DNA from: Isoptericola luteus
GTDB lineage: Bacteria > Actinomycetota > Actinomycetes > Actinomycetales > Cellulomonadaceae
Assembly: GCF_020297055.1 (NCBI RefSeq)
Contig: NZ_JAIXCQ010000006.1
Location: 62,001-126,000 of the forward strand
Direction: 5' to 3'
Length of the DNA: 64,000 nucleotides
Under the pieces are notes generated by a model. That model was not told the DNA's origin, did no database searches, and was given only the letters and a program-made list of their open reading frames with translations. Of this stretch, positions 12,883-62,915 are shown piece by piece. The position numbers and the translations under genes were made by a program. Within the stretch, counting starts at the first letter, position 1, and every line of letters begins with the position of its first letter.

Positions 12883-13590
12883 TCAGGCCGGAGGATCGGC
12901 CGGCCAGGAGAACCAGTCCTCGGGGACCGACTCGTCGAGCCGGTGCACCTCGTCGTCGCGCAAGGCCCAGGCGACCAGGAGGCCCGTGGCCACGATCCTC
13001 GCGACGGCCCCGGCGCCGAGCGGGCTGAAGTGCGTGTCGTCCGCCCGCCCGTCGGCGTGCAGGAAGTACCGCTTCGTCTCCTCCGGTCCGAGCCCGTGCC
13101 ACAGGGCGAGCGAGTCGCCCTGGAGGTCGAGCAGCGGCACGTCCTCGTCCGCGGCCACGGCCCGCACCGCGTCCGGGTACTCGCCGTGGGTGGGCAGGGC
13201 GGTCCCCGCCTCGTCGAAGGAGCGCCGCTCGACCGGCGTCACCAGCACGGGCTCGGCCCCGGCGTCCCGGGCACCGCGCACGTACTCGCGCAGGTGCTCC
13301 GAGTAGTCGGACCAGGGCTCCGTGAACCGCGACGGGTCGTCGGCCTTGGCGTCGTTGTGCCCGAACTGGATCACGAAGACGTCGCCCCGGCTGACCGCGG
13401 CGAGCGCCGTGCCGCGACGGCCCTCGGCGGCGAAGCTCCTGGTGCTGCGCCCGTTGCGGGCGTGGTTCGCCACGGCGACGTCGTCGCGCAGGTAGAAGGG
13501 CAGGGCCATGCCCCAGCCCGTCTCCGGCGCGGCCGCCGCGCCCTTCGGAGCGGCGGTCGAGTCGCCGACCAGGTGGATGGTGCGGGGCAT
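12883..13590 (-). CDS. Rhamnogalacturonan acetylesterase-like SGNH hydrolase (CE12)
   Basis: This 235-residue SGNH/GDSL hydrolase has TIHLVGDSTAAP (catalytic Ser in GDST, block I), NHARNGRSTRSF (Gly and Asn blocks), FVIQFGHNDAK (block III with GHND) and ADDTHFSPLGAGAVA (Asp and His of the triad, block V). These are the hallmarks of family CE12 enzymes such as YesT, which remove acetyl groups from rhamnogalacturonan. No signal peptide is visible, so it may act inside the cell on imported oligosaccharides. GGAGG lies 4 bases before the ATG. It is the first gene before lacI-uxaA on the same strand, separated by 69 bases that hold the operator. Confidence 0.87.
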   Translation of the reverse strand: MPRTIHLVGDSTAAPKGAAAAPETGWGMALPFYLRDDVAVANHARNGRSTRSFAAEGRRGTALAAVSRGDVFVIQFGHNDAKADDPSRFTEPWSDYSEHLREYVRGARDAGAEPVLVTPVERRSFDEAGTALPTHGEYPDAVRAVAADEDVPLLDLQGDSLALWHGLGPEETKRYFLHADGRADDTHFSPLGAGAVARIVATGLLVAWALRDDEVHRLDESVPEDWFSWPADPPA

Positions 13591-13816
13591 GGGTCCTCCA
13601 GGGGACGTGGGAAGACGCGGGAGAACCCCGCGCCCACCGGTATGGCCGGGTGCTCGTCTGCACCCTATGTGCCCCACGTCACCCGGCCGTGCCGCTCCGC
13701 ACCGCCGACCCGGGGCCGCCCACCGAGATGCCCTGTACGCACACCGGTCCCGTGAGTAGGGTCGGCGCAGATCCGGTCAGCACCAGCACCGTCGCCGCGC
13801 GCACCAGGAGTCAACG

Positions 13817-48775: not shown

Positions 48776-51712
<2,937 letters not shown>

Positions 51713-51713
51713 G

Positions 51714-53285
51714 TTGTCCACGAGCCGTCTGGAGGGTGCCCTCGCGCGCAGCGAGGGCGCCTTCGGCACGCCCGCGCTGGCGCTCCTGCACCGCAAGGAG
51801 GGCCCGCTCGTCGTCGCCGTCCTGTCGCTGATCTTCACGCCCGGTCGTTCGCGGGTGGCCACGGAGCAGATGCACGTCGAGGTGGAGGACCTGCTCGCCG
51901 AGGCGCGCTCCGGCGACCGCGACGTGCCCGACGGGCCCGCGCGCGCCCTGTGCTCACGCTGGGTGGCGGGGCGCTGGCTGGTGCGTTCGCTCGACGACGA
52001 GGGCGTCGAGCAGTACCAGGTGAGCTCGCACGCCGCGGAGGCGCTGGCGTTCGTCGACCGGACCCAGGGCTCGCGGTCGCTGGTGAGCGAGTCTCGGATC
52101 CGCACGCTGCTGGTGGCTCTCGACGGGCTGGCCCGGGACGCACGCCCCGACCGGGCCTCGCAGCAGGCGGCGCTGCGCGAGCAGATCGCACGGTCCCGCG
52201 ACGAGGTCGCGCGCGCCGAGGCGGAGCTGGCGCGGCTGGAGGCGGGCGGCCCCGTCACGCAGGTCCCGACGGACCGCCTGGTGGAGCAGCTCGACAACGT
52301 CGCGTCCCTCGTCCGCGAGCTCCCGGCGGACTTCGCACGCGTCGTGGAGTCGATCGCCGAGCTGCAGCGTGCCATCGTCACGAGCCTGCGGCAGGACGAG
52401 CGCGCCACGGGGGAGGTGCTGGGCGACTATCTCGACGCGTCGGAGCACCTCATGCGCCGCACCCCGGAGGGCCGGGCGTTCGCTGGCGCGATGGAGGTGC
52501 TGCGCGACCCGCAGCTGCTGGCCCAGGTGGACGACGGCGTCCGCGCGGTGCTGTCCCACCCGTTCGCGGCCGACGTGCCCGAGGACCGGCGCGAGGCGGT
52601 GCGTGCCCTCTACGGGCAGCTGCTCACGGCGGTCGACGCCGTCCTCGACGCGCAGGCCCGGGCCTCGCGCACCATCACGCAGCAGCTGCGGGTGCACAAC
52701 CCGCTGCGCGACCGCGAGCTCGACGCCGCCCTGCGCGAGGCGACGGCGGCGATGGCCCAGTGGTTCCCGGCGTCCGCGCGCGCCGCCCGGGTCGAGCCGC
52801 TGCGGTGGTTCGAGCGGGCCCGGCTCGGCCGGTTCCGCGACCAGCTGCACGACCTGCGTCCTGAGACGCCGCCCGAGGCCCTGCGTGAGCAGCACGACCT
52901 CGACGACCACGACGCGGGCAGCCCGCTGGCGACGCTGCGCGGCATGGGCGGCCCGCGCTACGCGGAGACGACGGCGCACGTGGCGCGCATGCTGGCCGCG
53001 CGCGGGACGGCGAGCGCCGACGAGGCGTTCGCCTCCGCGCCCGTCGAGCTGCGGCGGCCCGTGGAGCTGCTCGGCTACCTGGAGCTGGCGGCTCCCGACG
53101 CGCTGGACGAGGTGCTGGCGGCCGGGGACGTGCCCGCGGACCGGGTGCGGCGGGTGACGACGGTGCGCGCGGACGGCACCACGCGCGACCTGGCGCTGCC
53201 GCTGGTGCGGCTCGAGGTCGGCGACGACGCTCCGGGCGCCCGGGCGGAGACGCCGGCGAACATCAGGGACGAGGGGGAGGCATGA
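51714..53285 (+). CDS. jetA: Wadjet JetA / condensin MksF-like protein (DUF3375)
   Basis: The 523-residue protein matches DUF3375. Its N-terminal winged-helix part has ALALLHRKEGPLVVAVLSLIF (split after residue 20) and LCSRWVAGRWLVRS. A coiled-coil region follows (about 140-260), then ITQQLRVHNPLRDRELDAAL and WFERARLGRFRDQL. JetA/MksF is the kleisin-like subunit that bridges the heads of the SMC-like JetC. It starts with the rare TTG one base after the leuS stop and has no clear ribosome site, which implies translational coupling to leuS. It overlaps jetB by 4 bases. In Wadjet the complex extrudes DNA loops and marks plasmids for cleavage. Confidence 0.88.
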   Translation: MSTSRLEGALARSEGAFGTPALALLHRKEGPLVVAVLSLIFTPGRSRVATEQMHVEVEDLLAEARSGDRDVPDGPARALCSRWVAGRWLVRSLDDEGVEQYQVSSHAAEALAFVDRTQGSRSLVSESRIRTLLVALDGLARDARPDRASQQAALREQIARSRDEVARAEAELARLEAGGPVTQVPTDRLVEQLDNVASLVRELPADFARVVESIAELQRAIVTSLRQDERATGEVLGDYLDASEHLMRRTPEGRAFAGAMEVLRDPQLLAQVDDGVRAVLSHPFAADVPEDRREAVRALYGQLLTAVDAVLDAQARASRTITQQLRVHNPLRDRELDAALREATAAMAQWFPASARAARVEPLRWFERARLGRFRDQLHDLRPETPPEALREQHDLDDHDAGSPLATLRGMGGPRYAETTAHVARMLAARGTASADEAFASAPVELRRPVELLGYLELAAPDALDEVLAAGDVPADRVRRVTTVRADGTTRDLALPLVRLEVGDDAPGARAETPANIRDEGEA

Positions 53286-54118
53286 CCGAGGTGTCCGAGG
53301 TGGACCACGACGCGGCGCACGACACGGCACAGGTCGCGATGCACGAAGACCACACCGGCGCGCCGCCCGCGGCGCCGCCCGGGCCCCCGACGTTCGTCGA
53401 GCCGGAGGCCGTCGAGGCCGACGTCACCACCCTGTTCGCGGGGGACACCGGCGTGCTGCCGTACCAGGCGCGCCGGGCGCTCGCGCTCGTGCTGCAGCGG
53501 CGCTACCTGTCGGCCGCCGGTCACCCCGCCGAGTGGAAGGCGCTGCTCGCGCACCAGGGAGTGCTCGCGTCGCGCTGCCACGATCTCTTCGTCGAGCTGG
53601 TGGTGGACCGCGACTACGAGATCGCCTACAAGCGTCAGGTGCGCGAGGCAGGGCTGAGCATCCCCGTGCTGCTCAAGGACGAGCCGTACAAGCGCATCGA
53701 GACGCTTCTCATGCTGTTCGCCCGCAACCGGTTCCGTCAGGAGCAGGGCGTCGGCGAGCGTGCGGCGTACGTGGACGCCGAGGAGCTCGTGGACTACGCC
53801 CTCGGATTCCTCGCGCAGGACGAGACCAATCTCGCCGGCCGCCGTCGGGAGATCGACAACGCGGTCGCGTCGCTGGTGCGGGAGCACGTGCTCGACGAGG
53901 TCGCGCAGGGCCGGTACCGGGTGGAGCCCGTGGTCGAGATCCTGCTGCCGGTCGAGCGGCTGCGCGAGCTGACCGCCTGGCTGCGCGACCCCTCGCCGTC
54001 CGGTCCGGGCTCGCCCCACACGACCGACCGCGCCGGTGAGGCGGACGAGGCCGACGAGACCCACGACGCCGACGACGGCTCGGACGCCGTCGACGAGGAC
54101 GAGGAGGCCACGGCGTGA
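53282..54118 (+). CDS. jetB: Wadjet JetB / condensin MksE-like protein (DUF4194)
   Basis: The 278-residue protein has the DUF4194 core (about 60-225), a pair of winged helices: GVLPYQARRALALVLQRRYL, LFVELVVDRDYEIAYKRQV, KDEPYKRIETLLMLFARNRF (about 132-151) and RYRVEPVVEILLPVERLREL. This KITE-like subunit binds JetA and the JetC heads. Compared with typical members of about 200 residues it has extra ends: an acidic, His-containing N-terminus (about 1-45) and an Asp/Glu-rich C-terminus (about 245-278). Both ends are probably disordered. ATGA overlaps link it to jetA and GTGA overlaps link it to jetC. Confidence 0.88.
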   Translation: MTEVSEVDHDAAHDTAQVAMHEDHTGAPPAAPPGPPTFVEPEAVEADVTTLFAGDTGVLPYQARRALALVLQRRYLSAAGHPAEWKALLAHQGVLASRCHDLFVELVVDRDYEIAYKRQVREAGLSIPVLLKDEPYKRIETLLMLFARNRFRQEQGVGERAAYVDAEELVDYALGFLAQDETNLAGRRREIDNAVASLVREHVLDEVAQGRYRVEPVVEILLPVERLRELTAWLRDPSPSGPGSPHTTDRAGEADEADETHDADDGSDAVDEDEEATA

Positions 54119-57100
54119 CCGTCACGGGCACGAGCACGACGTCAGAGGCCGCTGCCGCCGCGCCCCGGATGCAGCAGTCGCTGTTCGGGCTGATCCCCAC
54201 GGCGTCGGACGGGCGCCAGTGGGTGGCGCACTCGATGCAGCTCGTCAACTGGGGCGGGTACCACGGGCACCACGAGGTGCGGTTCGCGGGGACGACGACG
54301 CTGCTCACGGGCGCGTCCGGCTCGGGGAAGTCCACGCTGCTGGACGCGTACATCGCGCTGATGATGAGCCACACCACGCCGTTCAACGGTGCGTCGAACG
54401 GGGCCACCAGCGGGCGCGCCCGGGGGCAGGAGCAGCGCAACGTCGTCTCGTACGCCCGCGGCAAGCTCGACGAGCAGCGCACCGGTGCGGCGACGTCGAA
54501 GGACCGGGTGCTGCGCGGCGAGACGTCGGACACGTGGTCGGCGATCGCGATGACCTGGTCGTCCCAGGCCGGCGAGCGGATCACCGCCTTGCGCGCCTGG
54601 TACGTGCCGCGGGGCGCGAGCCGGGCGGACGAGACGACGCCGGTGCGCGCCGTCGTCGACGCGGACTTCGACGCGCGGCGGCTCGAGCCGCTCGCGGCGC
54701 AGCGCTTCGGCCGGGCGGGGCTCTCGGCCGCCGGGCTGACGACGTTCGACACCGACAAGGCGTTCGCCACGCGGCTGCACGCGGCGCTCGGCATCGGCGC
54801 CGCCGGGGACGGCGACACGGCGATGCAGCTGCTCGGCCGCATCCAGGCGGGGCAGCAGATCACCACGGTCGACGCCCTGTACAAGGCGATGGTGCTCTCG
54901 GCGCCCGAGACGATCCGCATCGCCGATCGCGCCGTCGCGCACTTCGACGAGCTGAGCGAGGTGCGGCACGAGATGGACACCGCGCAGCGTCAGGTCGACG
55001 TGCTGCGCCCGATGCTGGACCACCGCGCGGCGATCGACGCCGCGGTCCAGGCCCGCCGCGTCGTCGAGGACCTCGGGCTCGACGCCGCCGGCGCCGCCGT
55101 CGCCACCCCGGGCTCGCAGGGCGACGGGGGCCCGCGGGGTGGGTCGCCCACGCCGTTCACGGCCTGGCGCGACCGCACCCAGCTCGACCTGCTGCGCGAC
55201 GCGGAGACGCACAACCGCACCCAGCACCGCGCGGCCGCCGAGCGGGTCGCCGTCGCCGAGCAACGGATCGCCGCCGCGGAGGCCGAGCTCGAGCAGGTCC
55301 GGGCCGACCAGCGCAAGAACGGCGGCGACGCGATCGAGGCGGCGGAGCGCGACGTGCGCGAGGCCGAGCGCGGTCTCGCCGACGCGCGGCGCGCCCGGGC
55401 GGAGCTGGAGGGTCAGGTCGCGCCGCTCGAGCGCGACGTCTCCACCCGGCGTGACCTGGAGCGGCTGCACGCCGACGCACGCCGGTACCGCGACGAGCGC
55501 GACCGGCACACGGACGCGCTGTCCGAGGCGGTGCTCGACGCGAGCACCCGGGAGAAGGTGGCCGCCCAGGCGCTCGCGGAGCTGGAGCGTGAGGCCGCCT
55601 CGCTGCGCGACCGCAAGGGCAACGTCCCGCGCGAGCTGCACGAGGCGCGCGTGGCCCTCGCCCGGGCGTCAGGGTTGCGCGTGGAGGACCTGCCGTTCGT
55701 CGGCGAGCTGCTCGAGGTCCGCGGGGAGTACGAGCCGTGGCGGGAGGCCGCCGGCCTCGCGCTCGGCGGCTTCGCGCTGACGCTGCTCGTCGACGAGGAC
55801 CGGCTGTCGGGGTTCCGCACGGCGATCGACGACGTGCCGTCGGCGGTGCGGCTCCGGTTCGAGGGCGTGCCCACCGGCCTGCCGCTGTACGAGGAGACGG
55901 ACCGTTCGCTGCTGGGCGGGCGGCTCGAGATCAAGGCGGGGCCGTTCGGCGGCTGGCTCGCGGGCCGGCTCGCCGAGCGGTTCGCGTACGTCTGCGTGGA
56001 CGACCCGGCCGACCTGGCCCGGCACGACCTCGCCCTCACGCGCACCGGCCAGACCACCGAGGGCCGCCGCGGCGCCCACGGCGGCCGGGGCCGCGCGTCC
56101 GCGCTGGGCTTCAGCAACCACCGCCGGCTCGAGAAGCTGGTGGACGACGTCGCCGCCGCGCGCACCGAGCTGCGGCTCGCCACCGAGACGCTGGCGGGGG
56201 CGCGTCTGCGGCAGAAGGGCGAGGCCGACCACTTCGTCGCCTACAGCCAGGCGCTGCGCGTGGGGTGGGACGACATCGACGTGGCCGGGGCCGAGGCCAG
56301 GGCCGCCGAGCGCCGCGAACGGCTCGGGGCGCTGGTCGCGGGCTCCGACGTCCTGCGCGCGCTCAAGGCCGACGAGGACGCGCTGCGCGCCCGGCTCACC
56401 GAGCTCTACCGGGAGCGCGCCGAGGGACAGAACCGGGTGACCGAGCTCGGCGCCACCTGGGAGCAGCTCAGCGACCAGGTGGACCAGGTCGCGGACGCCG
56501 TCGAGCGGGCGGACGAGGACGGCGTCGCCCCCAGCCCCGAGCAGGAGCGGCACCTGGGCGAGCTCATGGCCGCCGTGGGCTGGTCCGGGGCGGTCGCGAC
56601 GTCCGGGGGCGGCGGGCTCGCCGACCTCACGACCGCGGTGTCCGCCGTCGAACGTGAGCTGCGGCACGACCTGGACGCGGCCGACGACGCCGAGCGCAAC
56701 GCCCGTGCGGCGCTGGCGGCGCTGTTCGAGCGGTTCAACGACACGTGGCCGGACCCGAACCGCGGGGCCGACCCCGACGCGTCGTACGAGGACTTCCTGC
56801 GGATCTTCTCCGAGCTGGAGTTCGCCCAGCTGTACCGGCTGCGGGGCAAGTGGTCGGCGCACCTGCGCCAGATGTCGGGCGACCAGCTCACCCGGTTGAA
56901 CAACGGGATCGCCCAGGCGGTCGCGGAGATCCGGGACCGGATGGAGCCCGTCAACACCATCCTCGCCACGCTGCCGTTCCGCGACGGCGAGCACCGGCTG
57001 CGCATCACCGCCACGCCCGCGGAGGGGCAGGACGTCGCGTCGTTCCGCCGCCAGCTGCGCGAGCTGGCGACGACGCCCGCGGGGGACGTGCCGATGGCCG

Positions 57101-57567
57101 AGCACGAGCGCCGATACGCGCGCATGTCGCGGCTCATCGACCGGATCCGCCCGGACAGCCCGGAGCGTCGCCGGCTGGTGGACGTGCGCGACCAGGTACG
57201 CATCAGCGCGGAGTGCGTCGACGTCGAGGGCAACCACGTGAGCGTCTACGACCACATCGCCGGCAAGTCCGGCGGGGAGTCGCAGGAGCTCGTGGCGTTC
57301 ATCGTCGGCGCGGCGCTGCGCTACCAGCTCGGCGACGCCGGCGCCGAGCGCCCGCGCTACGCCCCCGTGTTCCTCGACGAGGCGTTCATCAAGGCGGACG
57401 CCCGGTTCGCCGGCCGTGCGGTGGGCGCGTGGCGAGGGCTGGGCTTCCAGCTCGTCGTCGGCGCGCCGCTGGACAAGGTGAGCGCGCTGGAGCCGCACGC
57501 CGACGTCGTCCTGCAGGCCGTCAAGGACGCGACCGGCCGCTCACGGCTGGTGACGCTCGTCGGCTAG
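54115..57567 (+). CDS. jetC: Wadjet JetC / condensin MksB-like SMC ATPase
   Basis: The 1150-residue ATPase has an N-terminal Walker A in LLTGASGSGKSTLLDAYIAL (about 63-82), the family sequence PFNGASNG, and long Ala/Glu/Arg-rich coiled coils (about 350-520 and 690-830) around a hinge-like globular part (about 530-640). The C-terminal head has the ABC signature KSGGESQEL (about 1051-1059), Walker B PVFLDEAFIKAD (about 1084-1095) and VVGAPLDKVSALEPHAD. This is the MukB/SMC-like motor of Wadjet and MksBEF. Both ATPase halves look intact. A jetD gene should follow, but the next gene, 4 bases away, is on the other strand and unrelated. Confidence 0.92.
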   Translation: MTVTGTSTTSEAAAAAPRMQQSLFGLIPTASDGRQWVAHSMQLVNWGGYHGHHEVRFAGTTTLLTGASGSGKSTLLDAYIALMMSHTTPFNGASNGATSGRARGQEQRNVVSYARGKLDEQRTGAATSKDRVLRGETSDTWSAIAMTWSSQAGERITALRAWYVPRGASRADETTPVRAVVDADFDARRLEPLAAQRFGRAGLSAAGLTTFDTDKAFATRLHAALGIGAAGDGDTAMQLLGRIQAGQQITTVDALYKAMVLSAPETIRIADRAVAHFDELSEVRHEMDTAQRQVDVLRPMLDHRAAIDAAVQARRVVEDLGLDAAGAAVATPGSQGDGGPRGGSPTPFTAWRDRTQLDLLRDAETHNRTQHRAAAERVAVAEQRIAAAEAELEQVRADQRKNGGDAIEAAERDVREAERGLADARRARAELEGQVAPLERDVSTRRDLERLHADARRYRDERDRHTDALSEAVLDASTREKVAAQALAELEREAASLRDRKGNVPRELHEARVALARASGLRVEDLPFVGELLEVRGEYEPWREAAGLALGGFALTLLVDEDRLSGFRTAIDDVPSAVRLRFEGVPTGLPLYEETDRSLLGGRLEIKAGPFGGWLAGRLAERFAYVCVDDPADLARHDLALTRTGQTTEGRRGAHGGRGRASALGFSNHRRLEKLVDDVAAARTELRLATETLAGARLRQKGEADHFVAYSQALRVGWDDIDVAGAEARAAERRERLGALVAGSDVLRALKADEDALRARLTELYRERAEGQNRVTELGATWEQLSDQVDQVADAVERADEDGVAPSPEQERHLGELMAAVGWSGAVATSGGGGLADLTTAVSAVERELRHDLDAADDAERNARAALAALFERFNDTWPDPNRGADPDASYEDFLRIFSELEFAQLYRLRGKWSAHLRQMSGDQLTRLNNGIAQAVAEIRDRMEPVNTILATLPFRDGEHRLRITATPAEGQDVASFRRQLRELATTPAGDVPMAEHERRYARMSRLIDRIRPDSPERRRLVDVRDQVRISAECVDVEGNHVSVYDHIAGKSGGESQELVAFIVGAALRYQLGDAGAERPRYAPVFLDEAFIKADARFAGRAVGAWRGLGFQLVVGAPLDKVSALEPHADVVLQAVKDATGRSRLVTLVG

Positions 57568-57571
57568 GCGC

Positions 57572-58387
57572 TCATCCGCGGGTGACCCACACGAACCGCG
57601 TCCGCACCTCCGCCTTGGTGACGGGAACCAGGCGGATGCGCCCCGTCGTCGGACGATCGACCGACACCTTGCGCGTGCGCCACGCCTTGGTGCTGGACCT
57701 GGCGTCGACCGTGCCCGCGTACCGCTTGCCCACGTAGACCTTCATGCGCCCGGCGTCGGGGCCGGTGCGCACGGACAGGCGGATGGTCCGCGCCCTCTCG
57801 TAGGAGTACCTCGTCCGGGTGGAGAGCGAGGCGGAGTTCCGCGTGCTCACCACGGCGTAGGCGTGCTGGTGGGCAGCACCCTGGATGACGGACTTGTTGA
57901 CGTCGAAGTTCAGTATCGGGACGAGCGGGGCGTTCGTGCACTGGGTCTTGGACCACGCGCTCTTGTTCCCGGCGGCGTCGCGGGCGCGGACCCGGATGCA
58001 GAGCTCGCCGCCGTCGTACAGAAGGCCGCGGTAGGAGCGTGTCCCGGCGGAGCGCCAGGTCTTTCCCACGGTCGACCACCCGCTCAGCGCCTCCCGCTCG
58101 CCGGCGACGCGGGTCTGGATCTGGTAACCCGTCACCCCGCGGCTGTCCCGCGACTTCGTCCATGTCGCGCGCGGCTTCCAGGCGTACAGTCCGGCGAAGT
58201 CCGGGCCCTTCGGGTCGAGCCAGCGCTCGAGGCTGACGACCGGGCGGGTCGGGGCGGTGCGGTCGGCGGCATGGGCCGACGGCGCCGCAACCAGCGCACC
58301 GGTCAGCGCGACGGCGAGGCTCAGGAAGAACCCTGCGGCACGGCGGTGGACGGGGCGGCGGGGCTCGGTGCTCGACACGGTGCTCAT
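57572..58387 (-). CDS. Secreted Fn3-like protein of unknown function
   Basis: The 271-residue protein has a clear signal peptide (basic RRPVHRRAAG, then FFLSLAVALTGALVAAPSAH, cleavage after AHA at about 41). The mature part begins with an Fn3-like domain (about 45-150) containing CIRVRARDAAGNKSAWSKTQ, typical of bacterial fibronectin repeats. A second beta-rich part (about 155-271) is rich in Arg, Thr and Lys, with repeated RTG and RTR strings. No catalytic motif is visible; a cell-surface or matrix role is possible. It sits tail to tail with jetC (4 bases apart) where a jetD gene would be expected, and is divergent from glgP. Confidence 0.75.
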   Translation of the reverse strand: MSTVSSTEPRRPVHRRAAGFFLSLAVALTGALVAAPSAHAADRTAPTRPVVSLERWLDPKGPDFAGLYAWKPRATWTKSRDSRGVTGYQIQTRVAGEREALSGWSTVGKTWRSAGTRSYRGLLYDGGELCIRVRARDAAGNKSAWSKTQCTNAPLVPILNFDVNKSVIQGAAHQHAYAVVSTRNSASLSTRTRYSYERARTIRLSVRTGPDAGRMKVYVGKRYAGTVDARSSTKAWRTRKVSVDRPTTGRIRLVPVTKAEVRTRFVWVTRG

Positions 58388-61030: not shown

Positions 61031-62815
61031 TCAGCGGCGCCGTCGGGTACCGAAGACCGTGCGCGTGATCTCCCGCGCGAGCGTGGTGCCCACCGTCGTC
61101 AGGATCGATTCCAGCGGGCTGCGGGCCGGGCGTCCGCCGGACGGGCGGGTGGACCGCGGTGCGGGGGAGCGACGCTCCGCCTGCTCGGCCGCCTCCTCGG
61201 CCTCGGCACGGGCGTCGGCGGCGTCCTGGCGCTCCTGGTCGGCGCGGGCGCGCTCGGCCAGGAGCTCGGCAGCGGACTCCCGGTCGACGGAGGCCCCGTA
61301 GGCGGCCTGGCCGGGCGACGCCGCGACGGTCGCGGTCAGGGTGGCGGCGGGGGCCGGGTCCATCGAGGACTGCGGCGCGCGCACGCGGGTCCAGGCCACC
61401 GGCGTCGGGGTCCCGTCCTCGTCGAGCAGCGTGACGACGGCCTCGCCCGTGCCGAGGGACTGCAGCAGCCGCTCGAGGTCGTAGGGCGAGCGGGGGAACG
61501 TGCGCACGGCCGCGCGCAGGGCGGTCGCGTCGTCGGGCGTGAACGCGCGCAGCGCGTGCTGCACGCGGCTGCCGAGCTGGGCCAGCACGTCGGCGGGCAC
61601 GTCCTTGGGCGACTGCGTGACGAAGAAGACGCCCACCCCCTTGGACCGGATGAGCCGCACGGTCTGGACCACCTGCGTGAGGAAGTCCTTGGACGCGCCC
61701 GTGAACAGCAGGTGCGCCTCGTCGAAGAAGAACACCAGGCGCGGCCTGTCCGGGTCGCCCACCTCGGGCAGCTCCTGGAAGAGCTCGGCGAGCAGCCACA
61801 TGAGGAACGTCGAGAACAGGGCGGGCCGGTCGGCGATCTCGGGCAGCTCGAGCGCGGAGATCACCCCGCGCCCGTCGAGCGCCGTGCGCAGCAGGTCCGC
61901 CGTGTCGAAGGCGGGCTCGCCGAAGAAGACGTCGCCGCCCTGCGCCCCGAGGCCGGAGACCTCGCGCAGGATGACGCCCGCCGTCGCGGTCGAGATGCCG
62001 CCGATGCCCTTGAGCTCCGCCTTGCCCTCGGGCGAGGTGAGATAGGCGATCGTGGCCCGCAGGTCCTCGAGGTCGAGCAGGGCCAGGCCCTGGGCGTCCG
62101 CCCAGTGGAAGATCAGCTGCAGGCTGGACGACTGCGTCTCGTTGAGCCCCAGGACCTTGCTCAGCAGCAGGGGGCCGAAGTCGGTGACGGTCGTACGGAC
62201 GGGGACGCCCGTGCCGAGCCCGCCGAGGGCGTAGAACTCGACGGGGAACGCGGTGGGCTCCCAGTCCTGGCCGATGCTCGACGCGCGTGAGGCGATCTTC
62301 TCGTTCGCCGGGCCGGGGACCGCGAGACCTGACAGGTCCCCCTTGACGTCCGCGAGGAAGACAGGGACGCCCGCCGCGGACAGCCCCTCGGCCATCCCCT
62401 GCAGGGTCTTGGTCTTGCCCGTGCCGGTGGCGCCCGCCACCAGACCGTGACGGTTGAGCATCGACAGCGGGAACCCGACCTGCACCGACGCGTCGGGCGT
62501 CGCCTCGCCGCCCACCTCGCCGGTGAGCAGCGCGCCCAGCGCCAGCGTCGGGCCGTCGTGGGTGTACGCGGTGCGGACCTCGTCGCCGTAGCCGGGCTCG
62601 ACGCCGGCGGGGGCTTCCTGAGGCGCCGCGCGGTCCGCCTCGCCCGCACTCTTCGGTGCGGCACGGCGTGCCTCGGCGGGTGCGGCCCGGTGTGCCTCCG
62701 CCGCCTCGAGGGCTGCCTGGGCGGCCGCGGCCCTCGCTTCCGCCGCCTGTGCAGCGGCCTGGGTGGCGGCCGCCCGCAGCGCGGCGAGCTCGGCGTCGTC
62801 GGCGGTCTGGCCCAT
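61031..62815 (-). CDS. HerA-like ATPase (DUF853 family)
   Basis: The 594-residue protein has an Ala-rich coiled N-terminus (about 5-65), then a HerA/FtsK-type ATPase with Walker A VAGATGTGKTKTLQGM (about 123-138), LADVKGDLSGLAVPGPANEK (about 154-173) and Walker B LVFFFDEAHLLFTGASKDFL (about 375-394). The arginine-finger region FFVTQSPKDVPADVLAQLGS (about 410-429) follows, and then a C-terminal Ala/Glu/Arg coiled region. DUF853 proteins are widespread in actinobacteria with poorly known function. No NurA-like nuclease is adjacent. The ATG at 62815 has TAGCGT 7 bases before it, making it preferable to the GTG at 62824. It is divergent from degV. Confidence 0.85.
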   Translation of the reverse strand: MGQTADDAELAALRAAATQAAAQAAEARAAAAQAALEAAEAHRAAPAEARRAAPKSAGEADRAAPQEAPAGVEPGYGDEVRTAYTHDGPTLALGALLTGEVGGEATPDASVQVGFPLSMLNRHGLVAGATGTGKTKTLQGMAEGLSAAGVPVFLADVKGDLSGLAVPGPANEKIASRASSIGQDWEPTAFPVEFYALGGLGTGVPVRTTVTDFGPLLLSKVLGLNETQSSSLQLIFHWADAQGLALLDLEDLRATIAYLTSPEGKAELKGIGGISTATAGVILREVSGLGAQGGDVFFGEPAFDTADLLRTALDGRGVISALELPEIADRPALFSTFLMWLLAELFQELPEVGDPDRPRLVFFFDEAHLLFTGASKDFLTQVVQTVRLIRSKGVGVFFVTQSPKDVPADVLAQLGSRVQHALRAFTPDDATALRAAVRTFPRSPYDLERLLQSLGTGEAVVTLLDEDGTPTPVAWTRVRAPQSSMDPAPAATLTATVAASPGQAAYGASVDRESAAELLAERARADQERQDAADARAEAEEAAEQAERRSPAPRSTRPSGGRPARSPLESILTTVGTTLAREITRTVFGTRRRR

Positions 62816-62915
62816 GGCGGGCACGCTAGCGCGGGGGTGGGGCGCGTGCGCGCCGAGCCGTCGAGAGGGAGCGGTGCGGAGCCGGCCGCCGGGGCGCCAC
62901 TAGACTGCGGGTGCC

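Follow-up and report, generated by a model that had tools for sequence, protein, structure and literature searches.

A type I Wadjet (Mks) motor without a JetD match in Isoptericola luteus, a candidate second and nuclease-free condensin-like complex

Known Mks systems and the I. luteus locus

In the Wadjet motors described outside Isoptericola luteus, dimers of the SMC-like ATPase JetC hydrolyse ATP, are bridged by the kleisin JetA together with JetB, and extrude DNA loops; this kleisin-KITE-SMC architecture is shared with MukBEF. In the type I systems (JetABCD, also named MksBEFG or EptABCD), the motor is accompanied by the nuclease JetD (MksG). Here we describe the jetABC (mksFEB) genes of I. 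luteus at positions 51714-57567 of a 64,000-nucleotide stretch of its genome (contig NZ_JAIXCQ010000006.1, positions 62,001 to 126,000; hereafter the window), for which no JetD could be detected either at the locus or elsewhere in the genome. In the reading that we prefer, with a probability of roughly 0.6, the locus encodes a type I Wadjet motor that lost JetD in evolution and was retained as an additional condensin-like complex without a nuclease, the chromosome being its likeliest substrate.

Among the described systems, the MksBEF complex of Pseudomonas aeruginosa is nuclease-free, has a role on the chromosome and, according to a review, probably arose by the loss of JetD; MukBEF and MksBEF may themselves descend from defence systems (PMC10586767). 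The likeness to I. luteus lies in a Muk-like SMC complex without a nuclease beside SMC-ScpAB (PMC4255302). The differences are the distant lineage, the apparently separate and repeated loss of JetD among the actinobacterial type I systems, and the chromosome role, which for I. luteus is only proposed. Since P. aeruginosa PA14 additionally carries a nuclease-bearing operon (PMC10123090), the MksBEF precedent cannot be extended to all Mks systems of the species. The MksBEFG complex of Corynebacterium glutamicum is likewise an actinobacterial JetABC homologue with a separate SMC-ScpAB; unlike the I. luteus complex, however, it retains MksG, limits some plasmids and is reported to take no part in chromosome folding (PMC7083940, PMC10123090). 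The total-extrusion model implies that JetABC acts on chromosomes too, which the review gives as undocumented for a JetABCD system (PMC10586767). In Bacillota, jetABCD and small plasmids show near-complete mutual exclusion (PMC12287153).

The three I. luteus genes are intact, overlap each other and follow the canonical order of type I Wadjet (Mks) systems, all on the forward strand: jetA/mksF (51714..53285, +) for the kleisin subunit (DUF3375; Pfam 6e-103, PADLOC JetA1 2e-156), jetB/mksE (53282..54118, +) for the KITE subunit (DUF4194; Pfam 2e-34, PADLOC JetB1 2e-77) and jetC/mksB (54115..57567, +) for the SMC-like ATPase (PADLOC JetC1 E 0; Pfam SbcC_Walker_B and AAA_29). By sequence, the closest solved structures are 8dk2 for JetC (E 5e-44) and 8q72 for JetA (E 3e-19), and JetC is 82% identical to that of Isoptericola sp. 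BMS4. A preliminary description, made from the letters of the sequence, had proposed this gene set and order, which the Pfam and PADLOC matches bear out, and had also noted intact ATPase motifs in JetC. All three motifs could be located in JetC: Walker A is GASGSGKST (G66-T74), the signature SGGE (S1052-E1055) and Walker B VFLDEAF (V1085-F1091), and their residues are invariant across eight aligned JetC proteins except for A67 and S70. A fusion of JetD into JetA, JetB or JetC was rejected, since the three proteins gave no match to a nuclease or JetD model and their above-cut-off matches were DUF3375, DUF4194 and ATPase domains.

The best PADLOC profiles, JetA1, JetB1 and JetC1, assign the locus to Wadjet type I. 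JetC matched JetC1 at E 0 but JetC2 only at 0.0017, and the 25 families listed out of 39 did not include JetC3; the best match is not to a type II or III profile. The locus shares with type I its three subunits, in one overlapping gene set of the same order, and its ATPase motifs, while no JetD (DUF3322 plus DUF2220/JetD_C) was found at the locus or elsewhere in the genome; a further difference from that type is the near-universal presence in the genus beside a fixed core gene. With MksF, MksE and MksB present and MksG absent, the composition is that of a nuclease-free MksBEF, and the separate SMC (915 bits) and ScpA (1.3e-40) encoded elsewhere in the genome match the coexistence of MksBEF with SMC-ScpAB. 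The likeness to MukBEF includes a weak match to the MukB N-terminal domain, below threshold (18.8 bits against a cut-off of 23; E 0.0014), but the protein is far closer to JetC1, and the co-occurrence with SMC and ScpA is a second difference from MukBEF.

Absence of JetD and its distribution in relatives

The usual position of jetD is reduced to the 4 bases (57568..57571) between the jetC stop and an open reading frame (ORF) on the opposite strand, which terminates at 57572, and contains neither jetD nor a remnant of it. Over all stop-to-stop ORFs of at least 40 amino acids in the window, no match to a JetD profile was obtained at E 1e-4. The proposal that JetD does not follow jetC was thus borne out, as were the strand and distance of the next gene; its description as Fn3-like was not, the only Pfam match of this ORF being Ig_Rha78A_N at E 0.004, below the cut-off. 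Scans of the whole I. luteus genome with PF09983 and PF11795 (JetD_C and DUF3322) gave zero matches, with C. glutamicum positive as the control, and a profile built from nine actinobacterial JetD proteins also gave none, while all seven JetD-bearing control genomes were positive. Two of these seven (G410, and G434, whose coordinates match locus L232) had given rows to the profile; the other five (G442, G186, G414, G376 and G102) had not. The option that JetD is encoded elsewhere is therefore unsupported for I. luteus. That JetD is present but was missed, through an assembly gap or through divergence beyond the reach of the profiles, is barely plausible: the genome is indeed split over 26 contigs, but its completeness is 99.95%, the next gene lies 4 bases past jetC, and the window is free of N, so that no gap there can hide a gene. 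The positive controls and the lack of a JetD match in most genomes of the genus point the same way.

The distribution of JetA and JetD was determined in samples of 297 genomes of the order, 200 of the family, 18 of the genus Isoptericola and 295 of the class. JetA was found in all 18 Isoptericola genomes and JetD in four, leaving 14, I. luteus included, without a match; the JetD profile was also negative in G383, G422 and G426. For three members of the genus (G186, G376 and G414), JetD was located beside a second JetA. In the family sample, JetA was present in 156 of 200 genomes and JetD_C in 31, all of them among the JetA-bearing genomes, so that 125 of the 156 were without a JetD match. The corresponding numbers for the order were 123 and 66 of 297; the 136 above-cut-off JetA places included 62 with JetD within 10 kb and 74 without, of which two (G126 and G163) run off the contig end and cannot be judged. 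Across the class, a JetA match was found in 58 of 295 genomes (56 above the cut-off) and JetD_C in 32. A total of 80 named loci were kept from 287 confirmed ones: 21 with JetD, 53 without, one with a fragment and five ending too soon to be judged.

Some JetD-less groups lie apart from that of I. luteus. In family f6, a second clade of JetD-less JetABC was observed (L109, L116, L121-L129 and L131-L133; 14 of 14 without JetD nearby), and seven of these genomes also hold a separate JetABCD, which suggests a division of labour between the two. In f11, another family of the same order, other genes spanning 0.4 to about 11 kb stand between jetA and jetB at 22 JetD-less loci (L062-L076, L080, L082-L085, L090 and L091). 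JetB was found within the fetched region at 17 of the 22 and a whole JetC at five, JetC farther off not having been searched for; jetB is also parted from jetC at three of the five loci with both whole in the fetched region. At L064, the genes between the jet genes include an O6-methylguanine methyltransferase-like gene and siderophore uptake genes. A scan for JetB relatives in viral contigs confirmed none.

Evolution of the motor after the apparent loss of JetD

On a FastTree phylogeny of JetC (112 rows, 106 with known JetD state), at least 16 changes of JetD state were counted, 15 of them forced by well supported branches; under a model of losses only, the whole tree requires 29. The JetD distances follow those of JetC closely (r 0.925 for 80 loci, r 0.93 for the 26 JetD-bearing loci of this clade; none of 500 permutations reached such a value), the pattern predicted for a JetD that was inherited together with its motor and later dropped out of many lineages. 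JetD fragments persist behind intact JetABC at L197 (G449; 1314-1632, -; 106 amino acids, 62 bits) and at L236 (Cellulomonas sp. URHE0023; 13466-13733, +; 89 amino acids, 41 bits), and another lies beside intact JetABC at the more distant L194 (128 amino acids, 103 bits), as though the loss had been caught midway. JetD thus seems to have been lost repeatedly while the motor was kept; the direction, loss rather than gain, is our reading of the trees and distances, and some JetD genes may instead have been gained by joint transfer with the motor.

In the FastTree phylogeny, the I. luteus locus belongs to a well supported clade whose 14 rows are all JetD-less (17 rows at support 85), and in a check by IQ-TREE with 39 rows it falls within a clade of 13, the deep placement of Timonella and Jonesia being unsure owing to long branches. 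In the 39-row tree, the JetD label changed 9 times against a mean of 11.1 after shuffling (values as low arose in 52 of 500 shuffles for one group and in 58 of 500 for the other). The label is barely more clustered than in the shuffles, indicating rapid turnover and not a single old event. Accelerated evolution of JetD ahead of its loss was also considered: the median JetD/JetC distance ratio is 1.81 at seven Cellulomonadaceae-type loci against 1.33 at 15 others, but the JetA/JetC ratio is raised as well (0.99 against 0.80), which makes the case weak. The JetD genes of JetD-bearing relatives do not appear to be dead, with at most 1 of 24 near-invariant residues altered in the nine that were checked.

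The motor, in contrast to JetD, is maintained. In seven close pairs without JetD, the ratio of nonsynonymous to synonymous substitution rates (dN/dS) was between 0.02 and 0.38 for JetA, JetB and JetC; for leuS, it was between 0.02 and 0.26 in six of those pairs. These values are noisy, with stop-to-stop ORFs and partly saturated synonymous sites, and the highest one (0.376) comes from a JetB pair with uncertain ORF ends, but none approaches 1. JetABC is under purifying selection. This result bears on the view of the locus as a decaying, functionless remnant of a former defence system, for which the frequent changes of JetD state and the JetD fragments in relatives might speak; given the low dN/dS in every pair, the conserved ATPase motif residues and the retention in 18 of 18 genomes of the genus, we regard decay as very improbable.

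For the I. luteus lineage, the motor is also fixed in position. The gene leuS for leucyl-tRNA synthetase (48776..51712, +; Pfam tRNA-synt_1_2 1e-52) lies directly 5' of jetA and serves as the anchor of the locus, its stop codon TAG (51710-51712) being one base ahead of the annotated jetA start. The same adjacency was found in all 15 Isoptericola genomes for which the upstream flank was fetched (all of the 18 except G383, G422 and G426), and in members of Luteimicrobium, Paraoerskovia, Sanguibacter, Timonella, Jonesia and Puerhibacterium; it was not seen in the remaining named loci. At the leuS loci, the JetC and LeuS distances are correlated (r 0.67 for 19 rows, 0 of 1000 permutations as high), and r rises to 0.84 once the Isoptericola genome G410 and Puerhibacterium are dropped.

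The preliminary description had also raised the option that a different nuclease works with JetABC. The ORFs downstream of jetC were clustered at 112 loci without JetD or with a JetD fragment, the genes being picked mechanically and one locus of the 112 (L140) mis-scored, and no gene recurred at the JetD position beyond near relatives. The first same-strand gene after jetC, glycogen phosphorylase in Isoptericola, is common to near relatives only and varies by lineage, so that the neighbourhood gives this option no support.

A possible trace of the lost partner was found in JetB. The JetB N-terminus carries FI in 23 of 23 JetD-bearing relatives, in a FIxPV-like form in 22, whereas in the JetD-less leuS clade, I. 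luteus included, it carries FV without PV in 19 of 19; the I. luteus site (53393-53422) reads FVEPEAVEAD, the JetD-bearing relatives having a form like FIxPVxMEEDP. We hypothesize that FIxPV is the JetD docking site of this clade, the change being confined to one lineage and so not independent evidence. For a different type I system, a review describes contact between JetD and an IFDR motif at the N-terminus of JetB (PMC10586767). This published motif could not be aligned to FIxPV, and the PDB alignments stop short of the region.

The further neighbours at the I. luteus locus could be assigned to an iron-dependent repressor, an MFS transporter, a VKOR protein, glycogen phosphorylase and a HerA-like ATPase (61031-62824, -; PF05872 3e-185). 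Among six neighbours, including the opposite-strand ORF, PADLOC matches were obtained only for the HerA-like ATPase, all of them distant (HerA and mad8). A homologue of this ATPase was also observed near the jet locus in G209 (Sanguibacter group) and G172 (Timonella).

Proposed function of the nuclease-free complex

Of the options raised in the preliminary description, a chromosome-organising condensin fits the phyletic, synteny and selection data best, the chromosome role itself being proposed by analogy. By homology, the JetC dimers of I. luteus would hydrolyse ATP, JetA with JetB would bridge them, and DNA loops would be extruded. With JetD gone, the complete extrusion of a circle would no longer end in cutting. 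The likeliest substrate would then be the chromosome, which the complex may help SMC-ScpAB to fold or segregate, in the manner of P. aeruginosa MksBEF. The jetABC genes may perhaps be co-transcribed with leuS, and expression off the leuS transcript could make the complex constitutive in this lineage.

An intact and conserved circle-sensing motor might also control plasmids without cutting them, if small circles, once fully extruded, were compacted, silenced or mis-segregated. In agreement with such a role, Mks reduces the copy number of certain plasmids in C. glutamicum (PMC7083940). In the same species, however, the consequence for plasmids is the same whether mksG, mksB or mksF is deleted (PMC10123090), indicating that cutting is the active step there. 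The presence in every Isoptericola genome, next to leuS wherever the flank was fetched, is also unlike a patchy defence trait, and we consider anti-plasmid activity without cutting unlikely for I. luteus.

Several observations weigh against a nuclease-free condensin. Outside the I. luteus clade, JetD-less JetB proteins keep FI in 46 of 50 cases and the following PV in 43 of 50 (Puerhibacterium, which is leuS-linked, groups with G410 by JetC and has FI, is counted in the 50, whereas the five rows whose JetD state is unknown are not), and a partner could still dock there in trans. In a comparison aimed at a relaxed JetD interface, the sites conserved in JetD-bearing but lost in JetD-less proteins, 12 in JetA, 3 in JetB and 10 in JetC, are scattered without a clear patch and are confounded by phylogeny. 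The leuS linkage is absent from one of the two genomes checked in each of the groups g5 (Paraoerskovia, L287) and g101 (Luteimicrobium, L292). By LeuS, but not by JetC, both G410 and Puerhibacterium lie close to Isoptericola; in G410 (L196, 135-10137) the order is leuS-jetABCD, with jetD directly behind the leuS-linked jetABC. The complex at the leuS locus of both looks to have been replaced by a foreign one, armed in G410, so that the leuS locus can take a foreign, armed version; by the same token, the JetD of G410 is no proof of an ancestral JetD at the leuS locus. The best studied actinobacterial relative, the nuclease-bearing MksBEFG of C. glutamicum, is reported not to fold the chromosome (PMC7083940). 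Finally, DNA binding, extrusion and the chromosome role are predictions from homology in I. luteus.

The FI form retained by other JetD-less JetB proteins is also what one would expect if a nuclease acted in trans, be it a housekeeping enzyme or a substitute for JetD that has escaped recognition, and for 13 of the 74 JetD-less loci in the order sample the genome has a JetD match at another place, in one case only a 28-bit fragment. For I. luteus, though, the genome is without JetD, the FI form is gone throughout its clade, and the genes after jetC at JetD-less loci recur among near relatives only; a nuclease in trans is accordingly judged quite unlikely. The nuclease-free condensin-like complex is thus retained as the preferred reading. 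Its extension to the Actinomycetes, in which Wadjet would have been converted repeatedly into a near-core, nuclease-free second condensin, old in the leuS-linked Isoptericola-Sanguibacter-Jonesia lineage with its lost JetB FIxPV, and with jet genes that have drifted apart in f11, is put forward tentatively, at somewhat less than even odds.

The preliminary description had regarded a different nuclease partner or a chromosome-organising condensin, if either held, as new for this lineage. A nuclease-free MksBEF with a chromosome role is already known in P. aeruginosa (PMC10586767), and to that extent the claim has to be narrowed; the recurrent loss across Actinomycetes and the near-core status in a genus are unreported in the literature found. 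A search of open-licence full text, by titles and abstract openings, gave no account of recurrent JetD loss in Actinomycetes, which is not proof of novelty, and open-licence full text held no paper combining Wadjet with Cellulomonas or Isoptericola. For the family, calling Wadjet by JetABC alone would mislabel many members as plasmid-restricting, in view of the 125 JetA-bearing genomes without a JetD match. A clade with seemingly repeated nuclease loss, together with sister species that keep JetD, would provide natural pairs for testing what the motor does when it does not cut.

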